Assembly: GCA_024643795.1 (NCBI GenBank)
Contig: JAHEMF010000005.1
Coordinates: forward strand, 56,929 to 104,203
Length of the DNA: 47,275 nt
Source of the DNA: Bacteroidota bacterium
Lineage (GTDB): Bacteria > Bacteroidota > Bacteroidia > AKYH767-A > OLB10
Direction of reading: 5' to 3'
Numbering within the stretch: the first letter of the stretch is position 1; the number at the start of each line of letters is the position of its first letter. Shown piece by piece: positions 3,193 through 46,968 of the stretch. The notes beneath the pieces were generated by a model. That model searched no databases and was not told the origin of the DNA. It saw only the letters and a list, made by a program, of their open reading frames with translations. Position numbers and translations under genes: made by a program.

Positions 3193-3861
3193 ATGAAAAG
3201 GTCTGTTCTAGTCTACGCCGCATTGGCATTAATGCTTGTAACCACAAACCGTGTCTTGGCACAGGGTTCTTTAGGTGTGATTTCTATGCCTGGGTTTCCT
3301 GACTTACCTGCGGATTCAGCCAAGGAAGGGCAGCTATACAATTTTCAGGTGGTTGTTTCAAACACAACGGGAAGTACCATTCAAGGTCCAATCACATTGA
3401 TGATGAGGGTAGATTCCACTGATGTTATACTTGATACAATAAATAATCCGGTCTCGGGTTCTTCAACATTCACCCAAGGCATAAATAACTTTTCCTTTAC
3501 CCAGCCCACATTTAAGACCGGTAATAATATTGTGGTGGTTTGGCCGGTTGTTAACCTCTCTGTTGCTATCGATACTTTTTATACTGATGTTTATTTTATT
3601 CCTCTGTTAAGTAATATCGAAATTGAAGACCCGTTTGGTTTAACTATTTATCCAAATCCGGCCACCGAATTCATATACCTGGAGTCCGATGGGAAATCAG
3701 AGATCTCAGAAGCCGCATTGTTCGACATACAAGGGCAACTGATAAGACGGTTTAATGACCCCGCCAGGATGATCAATATTGAACAGGTACCCACCGGGAT
3801 GTACTTTTTATACATCAATTATGGAGGCCGACAACGATATGTGAGGCTAATGATCCAATGA
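3193..3861 (+). CDS. Small T9SS-secreted protein with type A sorting domain
   Basis: 222 residues. A signal peptide (about 1-23, cleavage after VLAQ) is followed by a beta-rich region of about 120 residues resembling an Ig-like or CARDB-like fold (YNFQVVVSNTTGSTIQGPI). The C-terminal ~75 residues form a typical T9SS type A sorting domain: YPNPATEFIYL, then a central ALFDIQGQLIRRF strand and a final PTGMYFLYINYGGRQRYVRL. Such proteins cross the inner membrane by Sec and the outer membrane by T9SS, where the C-terminal domain is removed or anchored. The cargo function is not recognisable. Monocistronic, with its own promoter at 3168. Confidence 0.85.
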   Translation: MKRSVLVYAALALMLVTTNRVLAQGSLGVISMPGFPDLPADSAKEGQLYNFQVVVSNTTGSTIQGPITLMMRVDSTDVILDTINNPVSGSSTFTQGINNFSFTQPTFKTGNNIVVVWPVVNLSVAIDTFYTDVYFIPLLSNIEIEDPFGLTIYPNPATEFIYLESDGKSEISEAALFDIQGQLIRRFNDPARMINIEQVPTGMYFLYINYGGRQRYVRLMIQ

Positions 3862-7305: not shown

Positions 7306-7917
7306 TTAACGAATAACCATGAAACTGCCTGTAAAGCGTGGTGAATTGTTGCGGCTTACTGTGATAGAGAATACGCCCGGTGTAAATTTCTCAGCTTTTA
7401 TAGGTATGCTATTCTCGCGTGTTTCGCCTTTAAGTATAAGCTTACCCATGGTATCGAAGACCTCATAATTATGGATCTCGTTATTGCTGTTTGAAAAGTA
7501 TAATGTACAACTTCCTTTACAGGGATTAGGAAAAATATTGAACCCATCTGTATTATATCCTATATACAAAACCGATAGTGTTTTACTGGTGATGCCGAGA
7601 GAGCTCACTTCGATACGGTAGTAATTAATGCTGTTATTTTCCGGTGAATCATGAGTCCACACATACGACTCATCAAATGTCGGATTACCACATACTCCCT
7701 GAAATTCATAAACCTCTTCAAAATTCTGTAGGTCTGTTGAGTGCATAATCTTTACTCCCTGACAAGTTACGCCGCCTTTTACAGTAAAAGCAAGTAGAAT
7801 TCCATCTGAGGTTTGCTGCCCAGCAAAGTATACAAACACACTATCGCCCTGCAGCTGAGCTGAAGAAGGGAAACCATAGAATAAAAGTGTGATTAGTATC
7901 AGTAATCGCCTCATCAT
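7306..7917 (-). CDS. Small T9SS-secreted protein with C-terminal sorting domain
   Basis: About 203 residues from the ATG at 7917 (the frame extends to a TTG at 7947, but two consecutive ATGs directly precede the signal peptide MMRRLLILITLLFYGFPSSAQ). The central part has a four-cysteine-containing beta region (GGVTCQGVKIMHSTDLQNFEEVY) of fibronectin-like character. The C-terminal ~75 residues are a T9SS type A sorting domain: FNIFPNPCKGSCTLYF, VFDTMGKLILKGE, FTPGVFSITVSR. Predicted to be exported by Sec and then T9SS. Same strand as, and 66 bp downstream of, the M1 peptidase gene, so possibly co-transcribed. Molecular function unknown. Confidence 0.82.
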   Translation of the reverse strand: MMRRLLILITLLFYGFPSSAQLQGDSVFVYFAGQQTSDGILLAFTVKGGVTCQGVKIMHSTDLQNFEEVYEFQGVCGNPTFDESYVWTHDSPENNSINYYRIEVSSLGITSKTLSVLYIGYNTDGFNIFPNPCKGSCTLYFSNSNNEIHNYEVFDTMGKLILKGETRENSIPIKAEKFTPGVFSITVSRNNSPRFTGSFMVIR

Positions 7918-7983
7918 TTTTCTATTGAGGTAATGTACTTTTAACAACGTGTAAGGATAATAGTTATTACACTGGCTATACTT

Positions 7984-38198: not shown

Positions 38199-38924
38199 TT
38201 AATTGGAAATAGTGCCCTTAAAAAGGAGCGACAAAATTATATATAATAAGATAATAATAGGTATTGCAGTGTAACCCAAACTAAAAATAAGCACTACCGA
38301 TAGTGCAGCCAGGATGATCTGGGGTTTGCTGGTGGTCCAGCTAACAGATTTTATTTTTAGAGAAAACAAACGGATGTCGGAAATGAGCAATGCCGACATG
38401 ACAGCACTTATAGCCATTAGCACATATGTATTGGAAAGCAAAGCCGCCAACCCGAACGAATCATGGTGCAGGATGAGTGGGAGAGAAGCAATTACCATAG
38501 CACTTGCAGGAGTAGGTAATCCGCGAAATGTTGTACTCTGACTATCATCGATGTTGAAGCGTGCCAGACGGATCGCTGAAAACACTGCTACAATAAATGG
38601 GAAGTAAGAGATTGGGAAGAAATATGGTGCACCTACATTATTTAGCAGTGGATGACTTTTGAGGATGAGTTCATGGAGGATGAATGCCGGTGCTACACCA
38701 AATGAAACCACGTCGGCCAGCGAATCAAGCTGCTTTCCTAATTCGGAATAGGCATTGAGCGATCTGGCAGTGAAACCATCCAGGAAATCCATAATCAGAC
38801 TCAGGCCAATGAGCATAGAAGCTCCGGCCATATTTCCCTGTGATATAAGTGCCAGCGCAATACATCCAAAGAAGAGGTTGAGGGCGGTTATGAGGTTCGG
38901 AATCTGTTTCTCGGGAGCAGCCAT
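38199..38924 (-). CDS. pssA: CDP-diacylglycerol-serine O-phosphatidyltransferase
   Basis: 241 residues, about seven to eight membrane helices. Transfers phosphatidyl from CDP-diacylglycerol to serine to give phosphatidylserine, precursor of phosphatidylethanolamine. The CDP-alcohol phosphotransferase motif DG(x2)AR(x8)G(x3)D(x3)D is intact in MDFLDGFTARSLNAYSELGKQLDSLADVVSFG; the N-terminal IPNLITALNLFFGCIAL and the VSFGVAPAFIL continuation match type II PssA. ATG at 38924 lies 13 nt after an exact -7 box. Upstream of purS. Confidence 0.94.
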   Translation of the reverse strand: MAAPEKQIPNLITALNLFFGCIALALISQGNMAGASMLIGLSLIMDFLDGFTARSLNAYSELGKQLDSLADVVSFGVAPAFILHELILKSHPLLNNVGAPYFFPISYFPFIVAVFSAIRLARFNIDDSQSTTFRGLPTPASAMVIASLPLILHHDSFGLAALLSNTYVLMAISAVMSALLISDIRLFSLKIKSVSWTTSKPQIILAALSVVLIFSLGYTAIPIIILLYIILSLLFKGTISN

Positions 38925-39158: not shown

Positions 39159-40241
39159 ATGACCAGAAACCTCATCATTTCACTGATCATTGCAACTGTA
39201 TGTATTACACCTGTGTTTTCGCAGGCGCCAAAATACAGTAATGAGTTTCTTTCCATTGGTATTGGTGCACGAGCACTGGGTATGTCAGGTGCACAAGTGG
39301 CATCGGTGAACGATATTACTTCGGGTTACTGGAATCCTGCCGGACTTACACAGGGAGTTGGTGATCTGCAGATTGGTTTGATGCACTCTGAATATTTTGC
39401 CGGGATAGGTAAGTTCGACTATGGAGCACTTGCGGCACCCATTGATGAAACACGAACTATTGGTTTCAGCGTGATTCGTTTTGCTGTTGATGATATCATT
39501 GATTCAACTGAATTAATTGATGCAGATGGTAATATAAACTATGACAGACTGAAATCATTTTCCGCTGCCGATTATGCATTTCTTTTTTCTTATGCTAAAA
39601 GAACCAACATTGAAGGGTTGCGTTACGGCGGTAATGTGAAGGTGGTGCACCGTAAGGTTGGCGACTTTGCTACAGCATGGGGTTTCGGTCTGGACCTGGG
39701 AATTCAATATGATAAAAACAAATGGCATTTTGGTGCCATGGCACGTGATATAACTTCAACATTCAATGCCTGGAGTTTTAATACCGAAAAACTTGAACCG
39801 GTGTTTATTCAAACTGGTAACGAGATCCCGGAGAACGGACTGGAAGTAACTTTACCAAAATTAATTTTAGGTGCTGCATGGAGATCACCTATCGGTGCCA
39901 AGTTCAGTATCCAACCTGAGCTGAATCTTGATGTTACTTTTGATGGTAAACGTAATGTACTAATCAAATCAGATCCGGTTAGTATTGAACCACACATGGG
40001 TGTTGAATTCGGTTATGATGATTTTGTGTTCATACGTGGTGGTGTAGGTAACATCCAGGATGTTAAGGATGTTGATGGTTCTACTTCCAAGATAGTATCA
40101 CCCAGCATAGGTATTGGTGTTAAGATCAAGAATGTGCAGGTTGACTATGCATTCACAAACTTCGGCGGCAGTGGCGGCGATAAGCTGTATTCAAATATAT
40201 TCTCTCTTCGTCTGGCACTGTTCAAGCAAGAAAAGAAATGA
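39159..40241 (+). CDS. PorV/PorQ-family outer-membrane protein
   Basis: 360 residues. Signal peptide (1-21, FSQ). Beta-barrel-like alternating strands with the family N-terminal motif NEFLSIGIGARALGMSGAQVASVNDITSGYWNPAGL, and repeated GARA/GLDLGIQYD/GVGVKI-like strands. PorV and PorQ act as outer-membrane shuttle or attachment proteins of T9SS that receive cargo C-terminal domains. Canonical PorV instead has a TAVPFL.I.PDARAGAMGD...SPD start, which is absent, so this is a PorV/PorQ paralog rather than PorV itself (from memory of the families). The stop overlaps the C25 gene start by 4 bp, giving a coupled pair. Confidence 0.85.
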   Translation: MTRNLIISLIIATVCITPVFSQAPKYSNEFLSIGIGARALGMSGAQVASVNDITSGYWNPAGLTQGVGDLQIGLMHSEYFAGIGKFDYGALAAPIDETRTIGFSVIRFAVDDIIDSTELIDADGNINYDRLKSFSAADYAFLFSYAKRTNIEGLRYGGNVKVVHRKVGDFATAWGFGLDLGIQYDKNKWHFGAMARDITSTFNAWSFNTEKLEPVFIQTGNEIPENGLEVTLPKLILGAAWRSPIGAKFSIQPELNLDVTFDGKRNVLIKSDPVSIEPHMGVEFGYDDFVFIRGGVGNIQDVKDVDGSTSKIVSPSIGIGVKIKNVQVDYAFTNFGGSGGDKLYSNIFSLRLALFKQEKK

Positions 40242-43200
40242 TCAAACGTTATACTCTGGCTGTAATTCTGTTTATGTTGTGTTCCCTTACGGGGATGGCA
40301 CAGCCTTATGGTAATGAGTGGATCAATTTTTCAACCAACCAACCCTATTCAAACCAACAGTATTTTAAGATCAATGTTTGGAAAGATGGAATCTACCGTA
40401 TAACGTATTCCGATCTTCAGGCAGCTGCATTTCCTATTGGCAGCTTTAGTCCAAAGCAGTTTCAGATCTTTCATGAGGGGGAGGAGCAGTTCATATATGT
40501 AGAGGGTGAGAATGATGGTTCTTTTGATCCTGCAGACTTCATTGAATTTTACGGTAAAAAGAACGACGGTAGTTTTGATACGCAGTTATATGCAAAACCA
40601 GAAGATCAGCTGAACCCTGATTTCAGCTTACTAACTGATACAGCTGTTTACTTTATCACGGTAAACTCAAATCCTTTGATTGTTAATCGCCGTATGGGTA
40701 ATGAAACAGATGTGAACTTCATCGGATATAACCCTTTGCCATATTGCATTTATACGGCATTCACAGGATACCATCAGGAGTATATTGAAAGTAATTATGC
40801 TCAGGTGATCGATCCTTCGTACTCGGCCGGTGAAGGGTGGTCGGGTGCTAAATTTGGAGGTAGCCCAACACGTACATTGTCTGTTCCCAATGTTAGTACC
40901 AACTTTACAGCTCCTCAGGCGATAGCCGAAACTATTGTAATGGGTGCAAATAACGATGGTCAACCACATACAATAGGAGTTAGTGTTAATGGTATAGGTA
41001 CATCAGTCAACTTTATTGGTTTTGAGATCAACCGGTTTATGATCAATCTGCCACCTTCGGCAATATCAAGTGGCACAGCAAGTTTTTCATATACAGTAGG
41101 TACCGGGGTAACTAACCTTAATACTACTCCATTTATAAAAGTAACGTATCCTCATAACCTCAGCTGGGGCGGACAGTCTGGAAAATATCAGGAGTTTGAT
41201 GTTCCCGGCAATCTTGCTCCGGGGAAGTCTTTGATCAACATGACCAACCTTTCGGTTAACTCACCAAGGTTGTACATGTTTTCAAACGATACACTTAAAA
41301 GGGTTTCACTGGTTGGTTCAGGTAGCAACTGGCAGGCTTTGATACCCACTTTTGGTAACAGCAGATCATGTGTTATCACCGATACGGTTTATTCTTCTTC
41401 TACCGGAAACGACTTCTACATTGAACCTGTCACAGAAGATCCTCAACGCTTTGCGCGATTCATTAACTATCAGTATATCGGTGACGCAGATTATGTAATC
41501 ATTACGCATCCGTTGTTGTGGAACAAAGCTGTACAGTATCAGAACCTCCGAACCATGTCGGGTTATCAGACCTTACTGGTTGATGTGATTGAGCTTTACA
41601 ATCAGTTTGCATACGGTACTCAAAAGCATCCTTTATCGATCCGTAATTTCTGTCGTTATGCACTCAATGCATTTAATACCAAGCCCGAATATTTATTCCT
41701 GTTTGGTAAGAGTGTGGTAACACATCGTACACGTTTTGTAAACTCCAACTGGGATAAGAATCTGGTGCCTACTTATGGATTTCCACCAAGCGACCTCATG
41801 CTGGTGTCAGCCATTACAGATTCTGTATTCCGACCGGCAATTGCAGTTGGAAGATTATCAGCGCAAAACGAGACAGACGCTGAAAACTATTACAACAAAA
41901 TGGTGGAGCATGAGATGTTGTTATCTCAACCACCACAAGACTGGCAAAAGAAAGTTTTACATTTTGGCGGAGGTACCGATATCCAACAGCAGGGCATTAT
42001 TGAAAGTATTCTTTCAGGATATAAACACATATTGGAAGACACGCTGATGGGGGCCAACGTTATTACCTTCCTTAAAACATCGTCTGATCCTATACAGGTC
42101 AATCTGTCAGAATATCTGCAGGCAACCATTGACAGTGGCGTTACCCTTATGACTTTTATCGCCCATGCTTCCGGAACATCGTTTGATATAAGTACTGATC
42201 TTCCGGAAAACTACCGTAATAAAGGACGTTATCCGATAGTGCTTGCAAACAGTTGTTTTGTTGGTGACATTCACTCTCCTGACCGTTTGATAAGTGAAGA
42301 TTTTTTGTTGTTGCCCGAGAAAGGTGCCATTGGCTTTATTGCCGAGCCCAGCGTTGGTTACCTGGAACAATTACAGGTATATAGCAGTAATTTTTATCAT
42401 CAGTTCGGTAATTATAATTACGGAGGTACAATCGGTAATACTATGAAGTATGCTATTGATACTATGATCAACGATCCGGTAGCACTGAGCAACCCGTACA
42501 TCTTTTATCTGTATAAATCCACCGCCATGGGTATGACCCTTCATGGTGATCCGGCATTGCAGATGACTAAATTCAATTTACCTGATTACAAGATCACCAA
42601 TGCTAGTGTTTCATTTCAGCCGGAGCTGATTACCAGTGATCTTGATTCATTTGATGTGCATGTTTATGTGCGTAATCTGGGTATGGCCACCAGCCAGCCA
42701 TTTGTAATGCATATACAACGAAGGTTCCCCGACGGGGGCGCTGTGTTTGAAAAGGATACAGTGTTGTCATATATCCCTTACGGGGACACTATCACTTTCC
42801 GACTGCCGGTTGATCAGGCCCGGGGAGTAGGTCTCAACCTCTTTGATGTATATGTTGATTATTACAGTGAAGTTGCTGAGTACAATGAAAATAACAATTC
42901 AGCTTTAGGGGTTCAGCTGCTGATACAGTCTACTGATATTATTCCGGTATTCCCATATGAGTTTTCAATTGTGCCCAATAGTGCCTGCACTTTAAAAGCC
43001 ACTACCTCAAATATACTTGCGCCGTTAAAGCCCTATGTGTTTCAGATAGACACTACCGACCGCTTCAACAGTCCTTTCATGAAACAGAACATTATTTCAA
43101 GTACCGGTGGTGTGGTTACCTGGCCGTTATCATTTTCATTGCAGCCAGACCTTGTATATTACTGGAGGGTGAGTCGCGACTCCTTGCCAGGCGATACAAT

Positions 43201-45307
43201 CCATCCAACATGGAAAGAAAGTTCATTCATTCACAAGCCGGGGCTTACAGGCTGGTCACAGGCACATTATTCGCAATTCAAGAATGATATATTTAACAAC
43301 ATAGATTATTCCAATACAGTTGACAGTACATTCCAGTTTGTTACCAATGCATCTACTTTATTTGCCAGAAACTTTTTAACGCTGAATATTTTTGATACTC
43401 CTACGTACGAAATAAACAGCGTTGTACAGGATTACCAAACGTGCGGTGGAAACACTGCCATTCATGTTGCTGTAATTGACTCAATTACTCTTCAACCCTG
43501 GACAACTGCCGAGCATGCATTTGGAAATGTGAACACCTTTGATCCGATTACCAATCAGGGAACCTGTCGTAATAGGGCGGAAAAATATTTCATTTTTAAA
43601 CCTGTTGATTTCCAGCAGCAACCTAACCTACAGCAGCAGCAGGCATTAGAAGACATGTTGCGAGATTCAATTCCTTGTGGGAATTATATACTTATTTATA
43701 CCGTGTATGGTGGTAAGTATTCGCAATGGACACCGTCGTTGATGCAGGAGATTCTGAATCTGGGAGCTGATTCGGTTCAGTATCTTCAGGATTACCAGCC
43801 TTATATCTTCTTCACCAAGAAATGTAATACAGGATATGAGCAGGAATCTATTGGCGACAGCAGCCGCACTTATATAACTCTCAGTGCTACTATGGGTGGT
43901 AACTGGTCTAAAGGGTTTGTAAATTCCAGAACTATAGGACCAGCTTCACAATGGACATCATTCCACTGGGGGCAATCACCACTTGAGGCTGTGCCCGGGG
44001 CTGATTCTATTTACATTGATATAATAGGTATTCAGCAAACAGGTGTTGAAACACCCTTACCTAACTATCAGGGCATACCTGTAAATACTCCTGATATCAG
44101 CATCACTCCGGTAGATGCTAATGTTTTTCCAAAGCTCAAGCTACGGGCATACATGCAGGATGAACAGTTGTACACTCCTCCTCAGCTCGATCGATGGCAG
44201 ATATACTATGATGAAGTGCCTGAACTGGCGTTGAGTCCGGTAAAGTATTTCAATGTTTCTAAGGATTCAATACAGGAAGGTGATGTGATATTTGTTGAAA
44301 TGGCTGTAGAGAATATCAGTGACCGACCGATGGACTCGGTACTTGTTAATTTTTATTTTTACGATAATAACAGGGTGAGGCATCAGCTTCCCATGACTCG
44401 TTATAAGCCTTTACAACCCGGAGATACGCTGATATGTAGCACAACGTTAAGTACTGACGGATATCCGGGATCACTATCATTGTGGATAGAAGCAAACCCT
44501 GACGATGATCAGCCTGAACAATATCACTTTAACAATCTTGCTGAGATACGTTTTGAAGTGAACAAGGATATCACCAACCCGATACTTGATGTCACCTTCG
44601 ATGGTATTCATATTCTGGATGGTGACCTGATATCCGGAAAACCTAATATTCAGATACGGTTAAAGGATGAAAATAAATTCCTTGCGTTGAATGATACTTC
44701 AGACTGGCAGGTATTCCTGACCGACCCTTCAGGCGTCCAGACAAAACTCGCGTTTGAACAACTATCATGCAGCGGACCAGCAACAGATGTTATGAAATGG
44801 TGTCCGGCCAACCTTCCTGATAATACCTTCAAGATCGAATTCAATCCGCTGTTTGAAAAAGATGGAGTGTATGAACTTTATGTTCAGGCAACTGACCGCT
44901 CTTCAAATCTGTCAGGCGATAATAGGTATAGCATAACATTCGAAGTGATAAACAAATCCACCATTACGGAGGTGATCAATTATCCGAACCCATTCTCTAC
45001 TTCTACCAGGTTTGTATTCACACTTACCGGGTCAAAGATCCCCGATTATTTCAAGATCCAGATCATGACCGTTACCGGTAAGATCATAAGAGAGATAACT
45101 CAGGATGAAATTGGTCCTATCCGAGTAGGGAGAAACATCACCGATTATGCATGGGATGGCAGAGATGAGTTTGGTGACCAACTTGCCAATGGGGTGTATC
45201 TGTACAGGGTCATTACACGTATTGAGGGGTCTTCCATAGAAAAGAGAGAAACCACAGCCGACCAGTATTTCAAAAAAGGTTGGGGTAAGATGTACCTTAT
45301 GCGATAA
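40238..45307 (+). CDS. Large C25-family cysteine peptidase, PorU-like, with T9SS-type C-terminal domain
   Basis: 1689 residues. Signal peptide (1-22, GMAQ). N-terminal beta region (~23-400); C25 gingipain-like catalytic region (~410-790) with predicted catalytic H643 (IAHASG) and C673 (ANSCFVGD), 30 apart versus 33 in RgpB; a CARDB-like domain (~800-890); a region with GGNTAIHVAVIDSITLQ and DSIPCGNYILIYTVYGG resembling the interleukin-like/ILEI fold (~1065-1155, tentative); a second CARDB-like domain (~1340-1435); C-terminal FlgD-Ig/T9SS sorting-like domain (YPNPFSTSTRF, near 1581-1689). PorU proteins, the T9SS sortases, are usually about 1100-1300 residues. Could be a PorU variant or a protease cargo. 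ATGA-coupled to the PorV/PorQ-like gene. Confidence 0.88.
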   Translation: MIKRYTLAVILFMLCSLTGMAQPYGNEWINFSTNQPYSNQQYFKINVWKDGIYRITYSDLQAAAFPIGSFSPKQFQIFHEGEEQFIYVEGENDGSFDPADFIEFYGKKNDGSFDTQLYAKPEDQLNPDFSLLTDTAVYFITVNSNPLIVNRRMGNETDVNFIGYNPLPYCIYTAFTGYHQEYIESNYAQVIDPSYSAGEGWSGAKFGGSPTRTLSVPNVSTNFTAPQAIAETIVMGANNDGQPHTIGVSVNGIGTSVNFIGFEINRFMINLPPSAISSGTASFSYTVGTGVTNLNTTPFIKVTYPHNLSWGGQSGKYQEFDVPGNLAPGKSLINMTNLSVNSPRLYMFSNDTLKRVSLVGSGSNWQALIPTFGNSRSCVITDTVYSSSTGNDFYIEPVTEDPQRFARFINYQYIGDADYVIITHPLLWNKAVQYQNLRTMSGYQTLLVDVIELYNQFAYGTQKHPLSIRNFCRYALNAFNTKPEYLFLFGKSVVTHRTRFVNSNWDKNLVPTYGFPPSDLMLVSAITDSVFRPAIAVGRLSAQNETDAENYYNKMVEHEMLLSQPPQDWQKKVLHFGGGTDIQQQGIIESILSGYKHILEDTLMGANVITFLKTSSDPIQVNLSEYLQATIDSGVTLMTFIAHASGTSFDISTDLPENYRNKGRYPIVLANSCFVGDIHSPDRLISEDFLLLPEKGAIGFIAEPSVGYLEQLQVYSSNFYHQFGNYNYGGTIGNTMKYAIDTMINDPVALSNPYIFYLYKSTAMGMTLHGDPALQMTKFNLPDYKITNASVSFQPELITSDLDSFDVHVYVRNLGMATSQPFVMHIQRRFPDGGAVFEKDTVLSYIPYGDTITFRLPVDQARGVGLNLFDVYVDYYSEVAEYNENNNSALGVQLLIQSTDIIPVFPYEFSIVPNSACTLKATTSNILAPLKPYVFQIDTTDRFNSPFMKQNIISSTGGVVTWPLSFSLQPDLVYYWRVSRDSLPGDTIHPTWKESSFIHKPGLTGWSQAHYSQFKNDIFNNIDYSNTVDSTFQFVTNASTLFARNFLTLNIFDTPTYEINSVVQDYQTCGGNTAIHVAVIDSITLQPWTTAEHAFGNVNTFDPITNQGTCRNRAEKYFIFKPVDFQQQPNLQQQQALEDMLRDSIPCGNYILIYTVYGGKYSQWTPSLMQEILNLGADSVQYLQDYQPYIFFTKKCNTGYEQESIGDSSRTYITLSATMGGNWSKGFVNSRTIGPASQWTSFHWGQSPLEAVPGADSIYIDIIGIQQTGVETPLPNYQGIPVNTPDISITPVDANVFPKLKLRAYMQDEQLYTPPQLDRWQIYYDEVPELALSPVKYFNVSKDSIQEGDVIFVEMAVENISDRPMDSVLVNFYFYDNNRVRHQLPMTRYKPLQPGDTLICSTTLSTDGYPGSLSLWIEANPDDDQPEQYHFNNLAEIRFEVNKDITNPILDVTFDGIHILDGDLISGKPNIQIRLKDENKFLALNDTSDWQVFLTDPSGVQTKLAFEQLSCSGPATDVMKWCPANLPDNTFKIEFNPLFEKDGVYELYVQATDRSSNLSGDNRYSITFEVINKSTITEVINYPNPFSTSTRFVFTLTGSKIPDYFKIQIMTVTGKIIREITQDEIGPIRVGRNITDYAWDGRDEFGDQLANGVYLYRVITRIEGSSIEKRETTADQYFKKGWGKMYLMR

Positions 45308-45330: not shown

Positions 45331-45367
45331 ATTCCCGTCGTATAAATGGCGGGAATTTTTATTTTTA
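45331..45367 (+). terminator. Intrinsic terminator after the C25 gene
   Basis: ATTCCCGTC and GGCGGGAAT (9-bp stem with one T-G wobble, 9-nt loop region) followed by TTTTTATTTTT. The ATG at 45346 lies within the hairpin, so it is not the lnt start. Confidence 0.8.
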
Positions 45368-45372
45368 CCATA

Positions 45373-46968
45373 ATGAATATCAATATTAAGTCGGGTGTAT
45401 GGTTTTCTGTGCTCAGCGGATTGCTGCTTTGGATGTCTTGGCCAGCTGCAGGCATTGCTCCGCTGCTGTTCATTGCCCTGATTCCATTGTTGCTGGTAGG
45501 CGAAAGTTATGTTTTGCCTGATTCTTTCAGCAACAAAACATTTTTCGGACTGGTTTATCTCTCATTTTTCATATTCAACCTTCTCACTACCTGGTGGATC
45601 TATTTTGCAAGCTTGTTTGGTGTTTGCATGGCGGTGGTCTTTAATTCACTGTTCATGACGCTGGCATTTTACTTTGGGTACAGGATCAAGAAGCTTGCAC
45701 CTCACAAGTTTGGGTTTTTCCCCCTCATTGTAATCTGGATATCATTTGAGTACCTGCATATGAACTGGGATCTGTCATGGTCGTGGCTGAACCTTGGCAA
45801 CGGATTTTCAGCCTGGTATCAGATAGTGCAGTGGTATGAATATACCGGTGTGTTAGGTGGTACTTTATGGGCGTTGATGGCAAATGTGATCGGGGCATCC
45901 TCATTGGTTGCCATGTTTAATAAAGATGGTGCAAGAGCTGTTAAACTGATCAGAGTTTTTTCTTTGGTCATTCTAATACCGGTGTTGGTCTCCATATTCC
46001 GGTACATAAATTATGTAGAGGTGAATGATCCTGTTGAAATTGCAGTTATTCAACCCAACATAGATCCGTACAATGAGAAATTTTCAGGAATGTCATCATC
46101 GGAACAGTTAAATAGAATACTTGCCCTGGCCGACTCAGTAGTTGATGAGAATACAGAGTATGTTGTAGCACCTGAAACGGCACTGCCTGACGGGTTATGG
46201 GAGAATGATCTTGAAACACATCCGCATATTCAATTATTGAAAAAATTTCAGTCGAATTATCCCGGGTTAAGCTGGGTTATAGGAATGGCATCCAACTATT
46301 ATTATGAAGACAGCACAAAGAGGTCGATTACCGCACGACGTTTCACTGAGGCTCCCGGATATTACGATTCCTATAATACTGCTATTCAGATAGAACACGA
46401 TGAGCCGATACAAATACATCATAAATCGAAACTGGTACCCGGAGTGGAAAGAATGCCATACCCTGCCATTTTCAATTATCTGAGTCGGTTTGCAATAGAT
46501 CTGGGTGGTACAACGGGCAGCTTGGGTACACAAAGCTCACCATCTGTTTTTACCAACAGTAAAGGTGTAAGCATCGCTCCGGTTATATGTTATGAATCTG
46601 TATATGGCGATTACCTGACTGAATACATCAAAAAAGGGGCATCGCTCATTTTTATCATCACCAATGATGGCTGGTGGCACAACACTCCCGGTTATCGCCA
46701 GCACCTCACCTATGCATCTCTGAGAGCTATTGAGCTGAGGAGAAGCATCGCCAGATCAGCCAATACCGGTATCTCATGCTTTGTGAATCAGAGAGGAGAT
46801 ATAATCGATCGGACCTCTTGGTGGGTTCCTGCAGCCTTTAAAGGTGAACTGAACAGGAATACAACAATGACCATTTATGCGCTTACAGGAGACATTCTTG
46901 GTAAGCTAATGGTGCTTTTTTCTGTTGGAGTGGTCTTAACTGTAGTGGTATTGCGCTTTAAACGTTAA
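45373..46968 (+). CDS. lnt: Apolipoprotein N-acyltransferase
   Basis: 531 residues from the ATG at 45373 (an upstream in-frame ATG at 45346 lies inside the terminator hairpin). An inner-membrane enzyme that N-acylates the lipidated Cys of lipoproteins. Seven to eight membrane helices in the first ~210 residues and one at the C-terminus flank a nitrilase-fold domain with catalytic triad E268 (VAPETALP), K351 (HHKSKLVP) and C406 (PVICYESVYG), comparable with E267/K335/C387 in E. coli; the downstream ITNDGWW and RSANTGIS motifs are also present. Full length. Confidence 0.95.
   Translation: MNINIKSGVWFSVLSGLLLWMSWPAAGIAPLLFIALIPLLLVGESYVLPDSFSNKTFFGLVYLSFFIFNLLTTWWIYFASLFGVCMAVVFNSLFMTLAFYFGYRIKKLAPHKFGFFPLIVIWISFEYLHMNWDLSWSWLNLGNGFSAWYQIVQWYEYTGVLGGTLWALMANVIGASSLVAMFNKDGARAVKLIRVFSLVILIPVLVSIFRYINYVEVNDPVEIAVIQPNIDPYNEKFSGMSSSEQLNRILALADSVVDENTEYVVAPETALPDGLWENDLETHPHIQLLKKFQSNYPGLSWVIGMASNYYYEDSTKRSITARRFTEAPGYYDSYNTAIQIEHDEPIQIHHKSKLVPGVERMPYPAIFNYLSRFAIDLGGTTGSLGTQSSPSVFTNSKGVSIAPVICYESVYGDYLTEYIKKGASLIFIITNDGWWHNTPGYRQHLTYASLRAIELRRSIARSANTGISCFVNQRGDIIDRTSWWVPAAFKGELNRNTTMTIYALTGDILGKLMVLFSVGVVLTVVVLRFKR

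Follow-up and report, generated by a model that had tools for sequence, protein, structure and literature searches.

The window analysed here is a stretch of 47,275 nucleotides from a Bacteroidota bacterium (assembly GCA_024643795.1, contig JAHEMF010000005.1, positions 56,929 to 104,203 of the forward strand), and it carries two adjacent genes, porV2 and porU2, whose products resemble the shuttle PorV and the sortase PorU of the type IX secretion system (T9SS). PorU2-PorV2 is a real, conserved second PorU/PorV-type pair, which is already named in NCBIfam but apparently uncharacterised. An original prediction, made from the sequence alone, had described the locus as two open reading frames overlapping by 4 bp that form a non-canonical T9SS-type pair, and both frames were confirmed at the stated positions with their 4-bp overlap. 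The features of the pair are as follows, where CTD denotes a C-terminal domain of the kind that directs proteins to the T9SS and rmsd a root-mean-square deviation:

39159..40241, + strand: porV2, 360 amino acids, stop TGA; predicted PorV/FadL-fold outer-membrane barrel (NF052325, 509.5 bits)
40238..45307, + strand: porU2, 1689 amino acids, stop TAA; C25 cysteine peptidase with a long C-terminal extension (NF052324, 697.5 bits)
40238..40241, + strand: ATGA, 4 bp shared by the porV2 stop and the porU2 start; 23 of the 47 adjacent named pairs are spaced identically (-4)
41492..42565, + strand: Peptidase C25 domain, residues 419-776 (PF01364, 191.8 bits)
42164..42166, + strand: codon of His643, which aligns with the conserved C25 His
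42254..42256, + strand: codon of Cys673, which aligns with the conserved C25 Cys
42635..42901, + strand: CARDB domain 1, residues 800-888 (PF07705, 25.1 bits, cut-off 22.7)
43346..43906, + strand: ILEI/FAM3/POMGnT1-stem-like domain, residues 1037-1223, from a predicted model and profile matches; glycan binding only suggested
44204..44569, + strand: CARDB-like domain 2, residues 1323-1444 (predicted model, Z 13.5 to 3IDU over 110 amino acids, rmsd 2.6)
44975..45304, + strand: PorU-like CTD of the type A kind, residues 1580-1689; profile and structural match to PorU 6ZA2, FlgD_ig
45227..45304, + strand: PorU2-specific CTD tail, residues 1664-1689, proposed PorV2-docking element (tail model, 74.6 bits)

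The ATGA overlap suggests that the two genes are translationally coupled, and both translations begin with what reads as a signal peptide. A comparison of both proteins with hidden Markov models of PorU, PorV and PorQ, as the original prediction had proposed, placed them in families of their own. PorV2 matches NF052325 (PorVQ2) over residues 6-354, well above the cut-off of 325 bits, and falls below the cut-offs of PorV (NF033710, 31.9 vs 250 bits) and PorQ (NF033711, 81.3 vs 220 bits). Its N-terminus, NEFLSIGIGARALGMSGAQVAS, which had been noticed as departing from the PorV consensus, is the form typical of the PorV2 family (consensus KYSNEFLxIGVGARALGMSNAxVAS in 48 aligned PorV2 proteins). 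PorU2 matches NF052324 (PorU_rel_Nterm) over residues 7-887, above the cut-off of 450 bits, and lies below that of PorU (NF033707, 207 vs 420 bits). The titles of both NCBIfam models say "putative" (sortase PorU2; sorting system protein PorV2).

Besides PorU2, the same genome encodes a second large C25 protein. A canonical PorU (NF033707, 1377 bits) is followed directly by PorV (NF033710, 526 bits) on another contig, C34. Because this canonical pair sits elsewhere in the genome, porV2-porU2 is not the housekeeping pair. The idea that it is simply PorU-PorV in reversed order, a sole housekeeping copy, draws on general family resemblance only (the 207 bits of PorU2 against the PorU model) and is refuted by the sub-cut-off scores together with the pair on C34, so that the label of a non-canonical pair stands. 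Among 150 of 202 candidates scored, at least 139 type A CTD matches were found in the window's genome (E <= 0.1), which thus holds PorU, PorV and type A cargo, as expected of a type IX secretion host. Two type A CTDs lie in the window itself, at 3646-3858 (+ strand, 45.4 bits, open reading frame 3193-3861) and at 7342-7536 (- strand, 27.6 bits, open reading frame 7306-7947). An apparently enormous open frame elsewhere in this genome is an artefact of a masked stretch and not a giant protein.

His643 and Cys673, predicted to form an intact catalytic dyad, are indeed present and align with the conserved residues of PorU; both positions are conserved in 100 of 100 aligned C25 domains and in every group. 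The aligned rows comprise the window, 64 other PorU2 (two PorU2 rows being identical), 21 PorU, 10 proteins with a gingipain-like layout and 4 PorU2-like proteins from other classes. In a midpoint-rooted tree of these domains, which number 100 out of 129 after omission of some named PorU2 rows and of rows that were short or masked, the window groups with PorU2 (65 rows, support 100/98), separately from PorU (21 rows, 100/100) and from the gingipain-layout group of the window's order (10 rows, 100/100). The four other-class rows fall outside the PorU2 group, and one of them, from genome G079, does so though its 456 bits are just over the cut-off. Single-sequence searches with either whole protein and with PorU2 residues 1-889 returned no usable match among solved structures, and profiles were therefore used; the PorU2 profile matched PorU 6ZA2 (E 7.5e-18) and gingipain R 1CVR (E 9.2e-10) over the C25 domain. 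A third C25 protein of about 1130 amino acids, with its catalytic domain at about residues 240-600 and a tree group of its own, is encoded at ten loci of the window's order (L223-L232), and many of the ten have a type A-like C-terminus.

The predicted structure of PorV2 (predicted local distance difference test score, pLDDT, 86) has a FadL-type barrel fold like that of PorV. Its best solved match is PorV 8GL6_F (Z 32.7, rmsd 3.8 over 296 amino acids), followed by FadL proteins at Z 29. BamG, named as a FadL-type subunit of the BAM complex in PMC12578637, was considered as an identity for PorV2 and set aside, as chains of BAM complexes reached only Z 25-26.

The C-terminal half of PorU2 (residues 880-1689) was predicted with a mean pLDDT of 88. 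A whole-chain Foldseek search with this half returned mostly common immunoglobulin-repeat proteins, with PorU 6ZA2 at rank 4, and domain-level comparisons were used instead. Two CARDB-like domains had been proposed, and both held up: the first exceeds its Pfam cut-off and the second is backed by the predicted structure. A possible ILEI-like module, also proposed, is weak by Pfam in the window's protein (E 0.085) and gains weight from the family, since 33 of 46 PorU2 C-terminal halves match Pfam ILEI at E <= 0.1 (best 8.6e-10), vs none of four PorU tested, and from its predicted fold. Profiles of the domain match FAM3B (E 0.00064) and POMGnT1 (E 0.0019), and its model resembles the POMGnT1 stem (5GGJ/5GGL, Z 18.7, rmsd 1.8-1.9 over 144-146 residues) and FAM3C (Z 15.6). 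The module may bind glycan. PorU attaches cargo to anionic lipopolysaccharide (A-LPS) supplied by PorZ (PMC10202324), so a glycan-holding domain within PorU2 would make sense.

The sorting-like C-terminus of the original prediction corresponds to a weak type A match of 20.8 bits (23.4 in the genome search; cut-off 23). The form WDGxDxFGDxLxxGVYxYR is common to most PorU2 and many PorU, all 46 PorU2 C-terminal halves examined gave a FlgD_ig match (E <= 0.1), and a PorU2 profile recovered the C-terminal portion of PorU 6ZA2 (E 2.8e-4); the structural match to PorU reaches Z 10.3 but with an rmsd of 13.7 over 204 amino acids. Ahead of the last strand, the CTD of PorU2 contains an extra stretch, which in the window reads KRETTADQYFKKGWGKMYLMR, and the model of this tail region includes a short helix at residues 1673-1677 (local pLDDT about 83-88). 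According to PMC11285876, the CTDs of PorU and PorZ, which are not cleaved, exceed cleaved CTDs in length and bear an extra beta-hairpin. The CTD of PorU escapes removal and remains bound to PorV, and that of PorZ is retained and binds PorQ (PMC10202324).

We modelled the tail from the last 32 residues of 44 named PorU2 proteins with an adjacent PorV2 and scored it on a separate genome sample with established PorV2 status (G and L handles denote genomes and loci). The best copy scored 21.2-74.6 bits in every one of the 16 genomes that have PorV2 and an intact PorU2, that of the window included, and in the four PorV2-negative genomes of the class the scores were 9.3, 5.9, 0.7 and 0.1 bits; PorU scored at most 2.0 bits in 21 of 21 cases. 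One PorV2-positive genome with a broken PorU2 (G115, 10.5 bits) was kept apart from the count of 16, and a short PorU2 in G532 (-2.7 bits) lies outside the comparison. Extra PorU2 copies with other C-termini lack the tail (G126, -1.5 bits; G091, -2.4; G190, -1.7). As side observations on such copies (loci L064, L065, L071 and L081), the second copy in G126 ends in a classic type A CTD, a 1597-amino-acid copy in G091 is without a PorU-like CTD, G190 holds a short copy of 1080 amino acids and G166 carries tandem copies. At named loci, where PorV2 was judged at the locus only, most PorU2 proteins without adjacent PorV2 or upstream sequence bear the tail, and the tail-less ones are two from Runella (6.9 and 6.3 bits), L186 (4.0) and L199 (-0.6); L159, L162 and one piece of L175 gave no tail score, their ends being masked or out of frame. 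On the tree, the tail-less PorV2-negative rows sit inside tail-bearing groups at two to three points (G190 with Runella; G146 by Fulvivirga; G049 with G186), and the losses occupy no fewer than two, and probably three, positions. Because the tail and PorV2 are present together and missing together in the genomes compared, we suggest that it docks on PorV2 and disappears with its partner; this is a correlation and not proof.

Distribution was assessed in an even sample of 295 Bacteroidia genomes and in a phylum sample of 247 genomes. PorU2 exceeds its cut-off in 208 of the former, in which PorU does so in 270, and in 23 of the latter (21 of them in the window's class), in which PorV2 exceeds its own cut-off in 43. 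Named PorU2 carriers include Taishania, Fluviicola, Fulvivirga, Reichenbachiella, Marivirga, Runella, Rufibacter and Pedobacter. PorV2 lies directly beside PorU2 in 12 of the 21 PorU2 genomes of the class. It is directly upstream on the same strand at 47 of 67 named loci with at least 1.3 kb of upstream sequence, which indicates that the adjacency is not due to chance; 3 of 70 loci were omitted for too short an upstream sequence, some of the 67 hold a partial gene, and L199 is a weak relative.

Genomes that lack PorU bear on what PorU2 does. Three genomes of one family, f3, all rated 100% complete (G007, G091 and G126), encode one, two and two C25 proteins, all at PorU2 loci; a third weak match to the PorU2 model in G091 is without a C25 domain. 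Their best matches to the PorU model were only 2.9e-34, 2.1e-29 and 2.3e-22 with two candidates scored per genome, and because of that limit the absence of PorU was checked with PF01364. All three keep canonical PorV, and the stretches retrieved around it contain no open reading frame of PorU length (in G007, PorV has a GldJ-like gene next to it). With all candidates scored, type A CTDs number 8, 52 and 96 in these three and 18, 18, 60 and 121 in four members of the family that have PorU. Of the other members, G150 has PorU only; in G115, PorU is intact, and stop codons interrupt the PorU2 that lies next to an intact PorV2 (locus L068). In two genomes of other classes (G195 and G199), the sole C25 protein found is a long PorU2-like one, with 16 and 18 type A CTDs. 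By our reading of the table for the 295-genome sample, 25 genomes fall below the PorU cut-off, and six of them carry a PorU2 strong enough to pass its own, among them G347, G401 and G496, which are only 86, 69 and 71% complete; G504 (92% complete) combines a PorU2 match close to the cut-off with a PorU match no better than weak, in contrast to the other members of its genus. Since three genomes rated as complete keep PorU2, PorV and type A cargo without PorU, PorU2 may act as a sortase.

Taken together, these results lead us to propose, at about even confidence, that PorU2-PorV2 is a second T9SS surface-processing pair, in which the enzyme docks on its barrel through the CTD tail and has a CTD-cleaving, sortase-type activity. 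The sequences themselves show the family membership, the conserved dyad, the separate canonical pair, the coupling, the joint loss of tail and PorV2 and the PorU-less genomes; the docking, the retained CTD, the sortase activity and the glycan binding are inferred. PorV2 would be an outer-membrane barrel of the PorV kind and PorU2 a C25 cysteine peptidase of the sortase type, exported by the T9SS via its own CTD. This CTD would probably remain uncut and stay docked on PorV2 through the extra tail that PorU lacks, as PorU does on PorV and PorZ on PorQ. At the surface, PorU2 would cut CTDs from type A cargo and perhaps pass the cargo to a glycan, for which the ILEI/POMGnT1-like module may hold the acceptor. 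It would work beside PorU where both exist and in place of PorU where PorU has been lost. A surface enzyme-anchor pair that works like PorU on PorV is the most likely arrangement. An extended version, which we regard as unlikely, is that the pair forms a second, self-contained T9SS attachment module, in which a private tail docks on PorV2, a glycan-holding ILEI module of its own replaces a PorZ-like deliverer, and PorU2 can be the only type A sortase in some lineages.

Several observations weigh against the proposal. PorV2 is on a different contig from PorU2 in 5 of the 21 PorU2 genomes of the class, and 4 of the 21 (G049, G146, G186 and G190) are without PorV2 over the cut-off (best matches 1e-6 to 1e-8). 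Conversely, 26 of the 43 PorV2 genomes are without PorU2 (24 in groups f4 and f5, plus G037 and G041), so PorV2 is not only an anchor for PorU2. The original prediction of a private PorV-like anchor for one protease is therefore upheld in part: the tail that is kept or lost with PorV2 favours it indirectly, and the three counts just given speak against exclusivity. The same prediction also raised an export or sortase module dedicated to a subset of cargo, which would be a further possible role. For the tail itself, no score threshold was set beforehand, the association with PorV2 is not phylogenetically independent row by row, and four of four other-class PorU2-like proteins are without the tail (-0.4 to 8.0 bits) despite sub-cut-off PorV2-like proteins of 200-273 bits in those genomes. 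Moving a PorZ-type hairpin into a cargo CTD left processing unchanged (PMC11285876), and CTD insertions therefore need not decide the fate of a CTD. We also considered an extracellular loop of PorV2, DGKRN (DG at 262-263), as the partner of the docking signature, which at first look seemed to part 64 PorU2-associated from 25 PorU2-less PorV2 proteins; the change is confined to f4 and f5, and because G037 and G041 keep the loop without PorU2, it offers no independent support for docking. With respect to glycan binding, the POMGnT1 stem binds GlcNAc via Arg129, Asp179 and Arg207 (PMC9802357), and by our reading of the profile alignment a counterpart of Asp179 is not evident in PorU2, so that sugar binding is only a suggestion from the fold. 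The three complete PorU-less genomes come from a single family, and one of them has only 8 CTDs. Finally, type A CTDs (4, 9, 9, 12 and 33 of them, listed in ascending order) also occur in five genomes that have PorV but neither of the two sortases and that were chosen out of a larger set (G080, G099, G130, G134 and G182), which indicates that such cargo can persist without an acting sortase and does not prove one.

Neighbouring genes place PorV2 in a further setting. Two genes flank the pair in the window:

38199..38924, - strand: pssA, divergent neighbour (TIGR00473, 116 bits, cut-off 107)
45346..46968, + strand: lnt, apolipoprotein N-acyltransferase, downstream neighbour by position alone (LNT_N 71.6 bits, CN_hydrolase 62.9 bits)

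In group f5, presumably Flavobacteriaceae, three loci without PorU2 (L086-L088) have PorV2 amid the window's neighbours, namely pssA, an LptB-type ATPase and three to four further shared families, which suggests that PorV2 has a role that does not need PorU2. At L086-L089, PorV2 is followed by one gene family, whose single scanned member is Lnb-like (DUF4105; 196.6 bits, under the NCBIfam cut-off of 550). This gene and the lnt that follows PorU2 in the window are both neighbours related to lipoprotein N-acylation.

Two other explanations of the pair have to be weighed. It is possible, but we think somewhat improbable, that PorU2 is no sortase but a large protease of the cell surface, itself exported as a T9SS client and held there by PorV2, with external protein as its substrate or a few partners to mature. 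Its CTD and type A features, its large modular C-terminal half and the different endings of the extra copies in G126 and G091 would all suit such a protein. However, its domain order and PorU-type CTD follow PorU and not the gingipain-layout proteases, which form a separate group with the C25 domain at about residues 240-600; its presence in 208 of 295 Bacteroidia genomes is, in our judgement, broad for a nutritional protease; and three genomes with T9SS cargo have no C25 proteins other than those at PorU2 loci. We consider it distinctly unlikely that PorV2 has an older role of its own, as a shuttle or in a lipid- or lipoprotein-related process, and that PorU2 was merely placed beside it without a working complex. 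The 26 phylum-sample genomes with PorV2 and without PorU2, the window-like and Lnb-like neighbourhoods in f5 and the sub-cut-off PorV2-like proteins in other classes are in keeping with such a role, but the repeated direct coupling with a 4-bp overlap and the loss of the PorU2 tail together with PorV2 argue for a partnership.

Current T9SS models are built around a single sortase, PorU, and a single type A shuttle, PorV (PMC10202324). If the proposed surface-processing pair is right, many Bacteroidota would possess two attachment routes, the second served by another C25 sortase-type enzyme and its dedicated barrel, and knowledge gained in PorU-only lineages, such as group f5, might not carry over to those with both. 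Species that have lost PorU and keep PorU2 and type A cargo would be natural knock-outs in which to measure PorU2 activity, and the CTD tail is a specific, removable candidate docking element. We found no study concerning the PorU2/PorV2 pair in the open-access literature searched, judged mostly by title and the start of the abstract. One paper's table contains the string "PorV2", which we read as PorV with a footnote mark, as other names there also end in a stray 2. A second paper that came up under these names deals with rotavirus.

Compared with known systems, PorU2 shares with PorU (6ZA2; NF033707) the C25 domain with conserved Cys and His and the PorU-type CTD, and differs in being 392 residues longer than the PorU of the same genome, in its separate tree group, in the ILEI module found in most PorU2 C-terminal halves but in no PorU tested, and in the extra CTD tail. 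PorV2 is like PorV (6H3I, 8GL6; NF033710) in its FadL-type barrel, with only 17% identity in the structural alignment, and has a distant family resemblance to PorQ. Of the two NCBIfam models, NF052324 covers about the N-terminal half of PorU2 and leaves the ILEI module and the CTD tail outside, whereas we found no difference between the window's PorV2 and NF052325, a family that occurs also without PorU2. The proposed docking has parallels in two systems that involve other families: PorZ and PorQ (PMC10202324), and type B CTDs with PorP/SprF barrels (PMC12618676). In both, a CTD is handled by a dedicated barrel whose gene often lies close by, as we propose for PorU2 and PorV2; these two systems are experimentally supported, whereas PorU2-PorV2 is known here from its sequence and predicted models.

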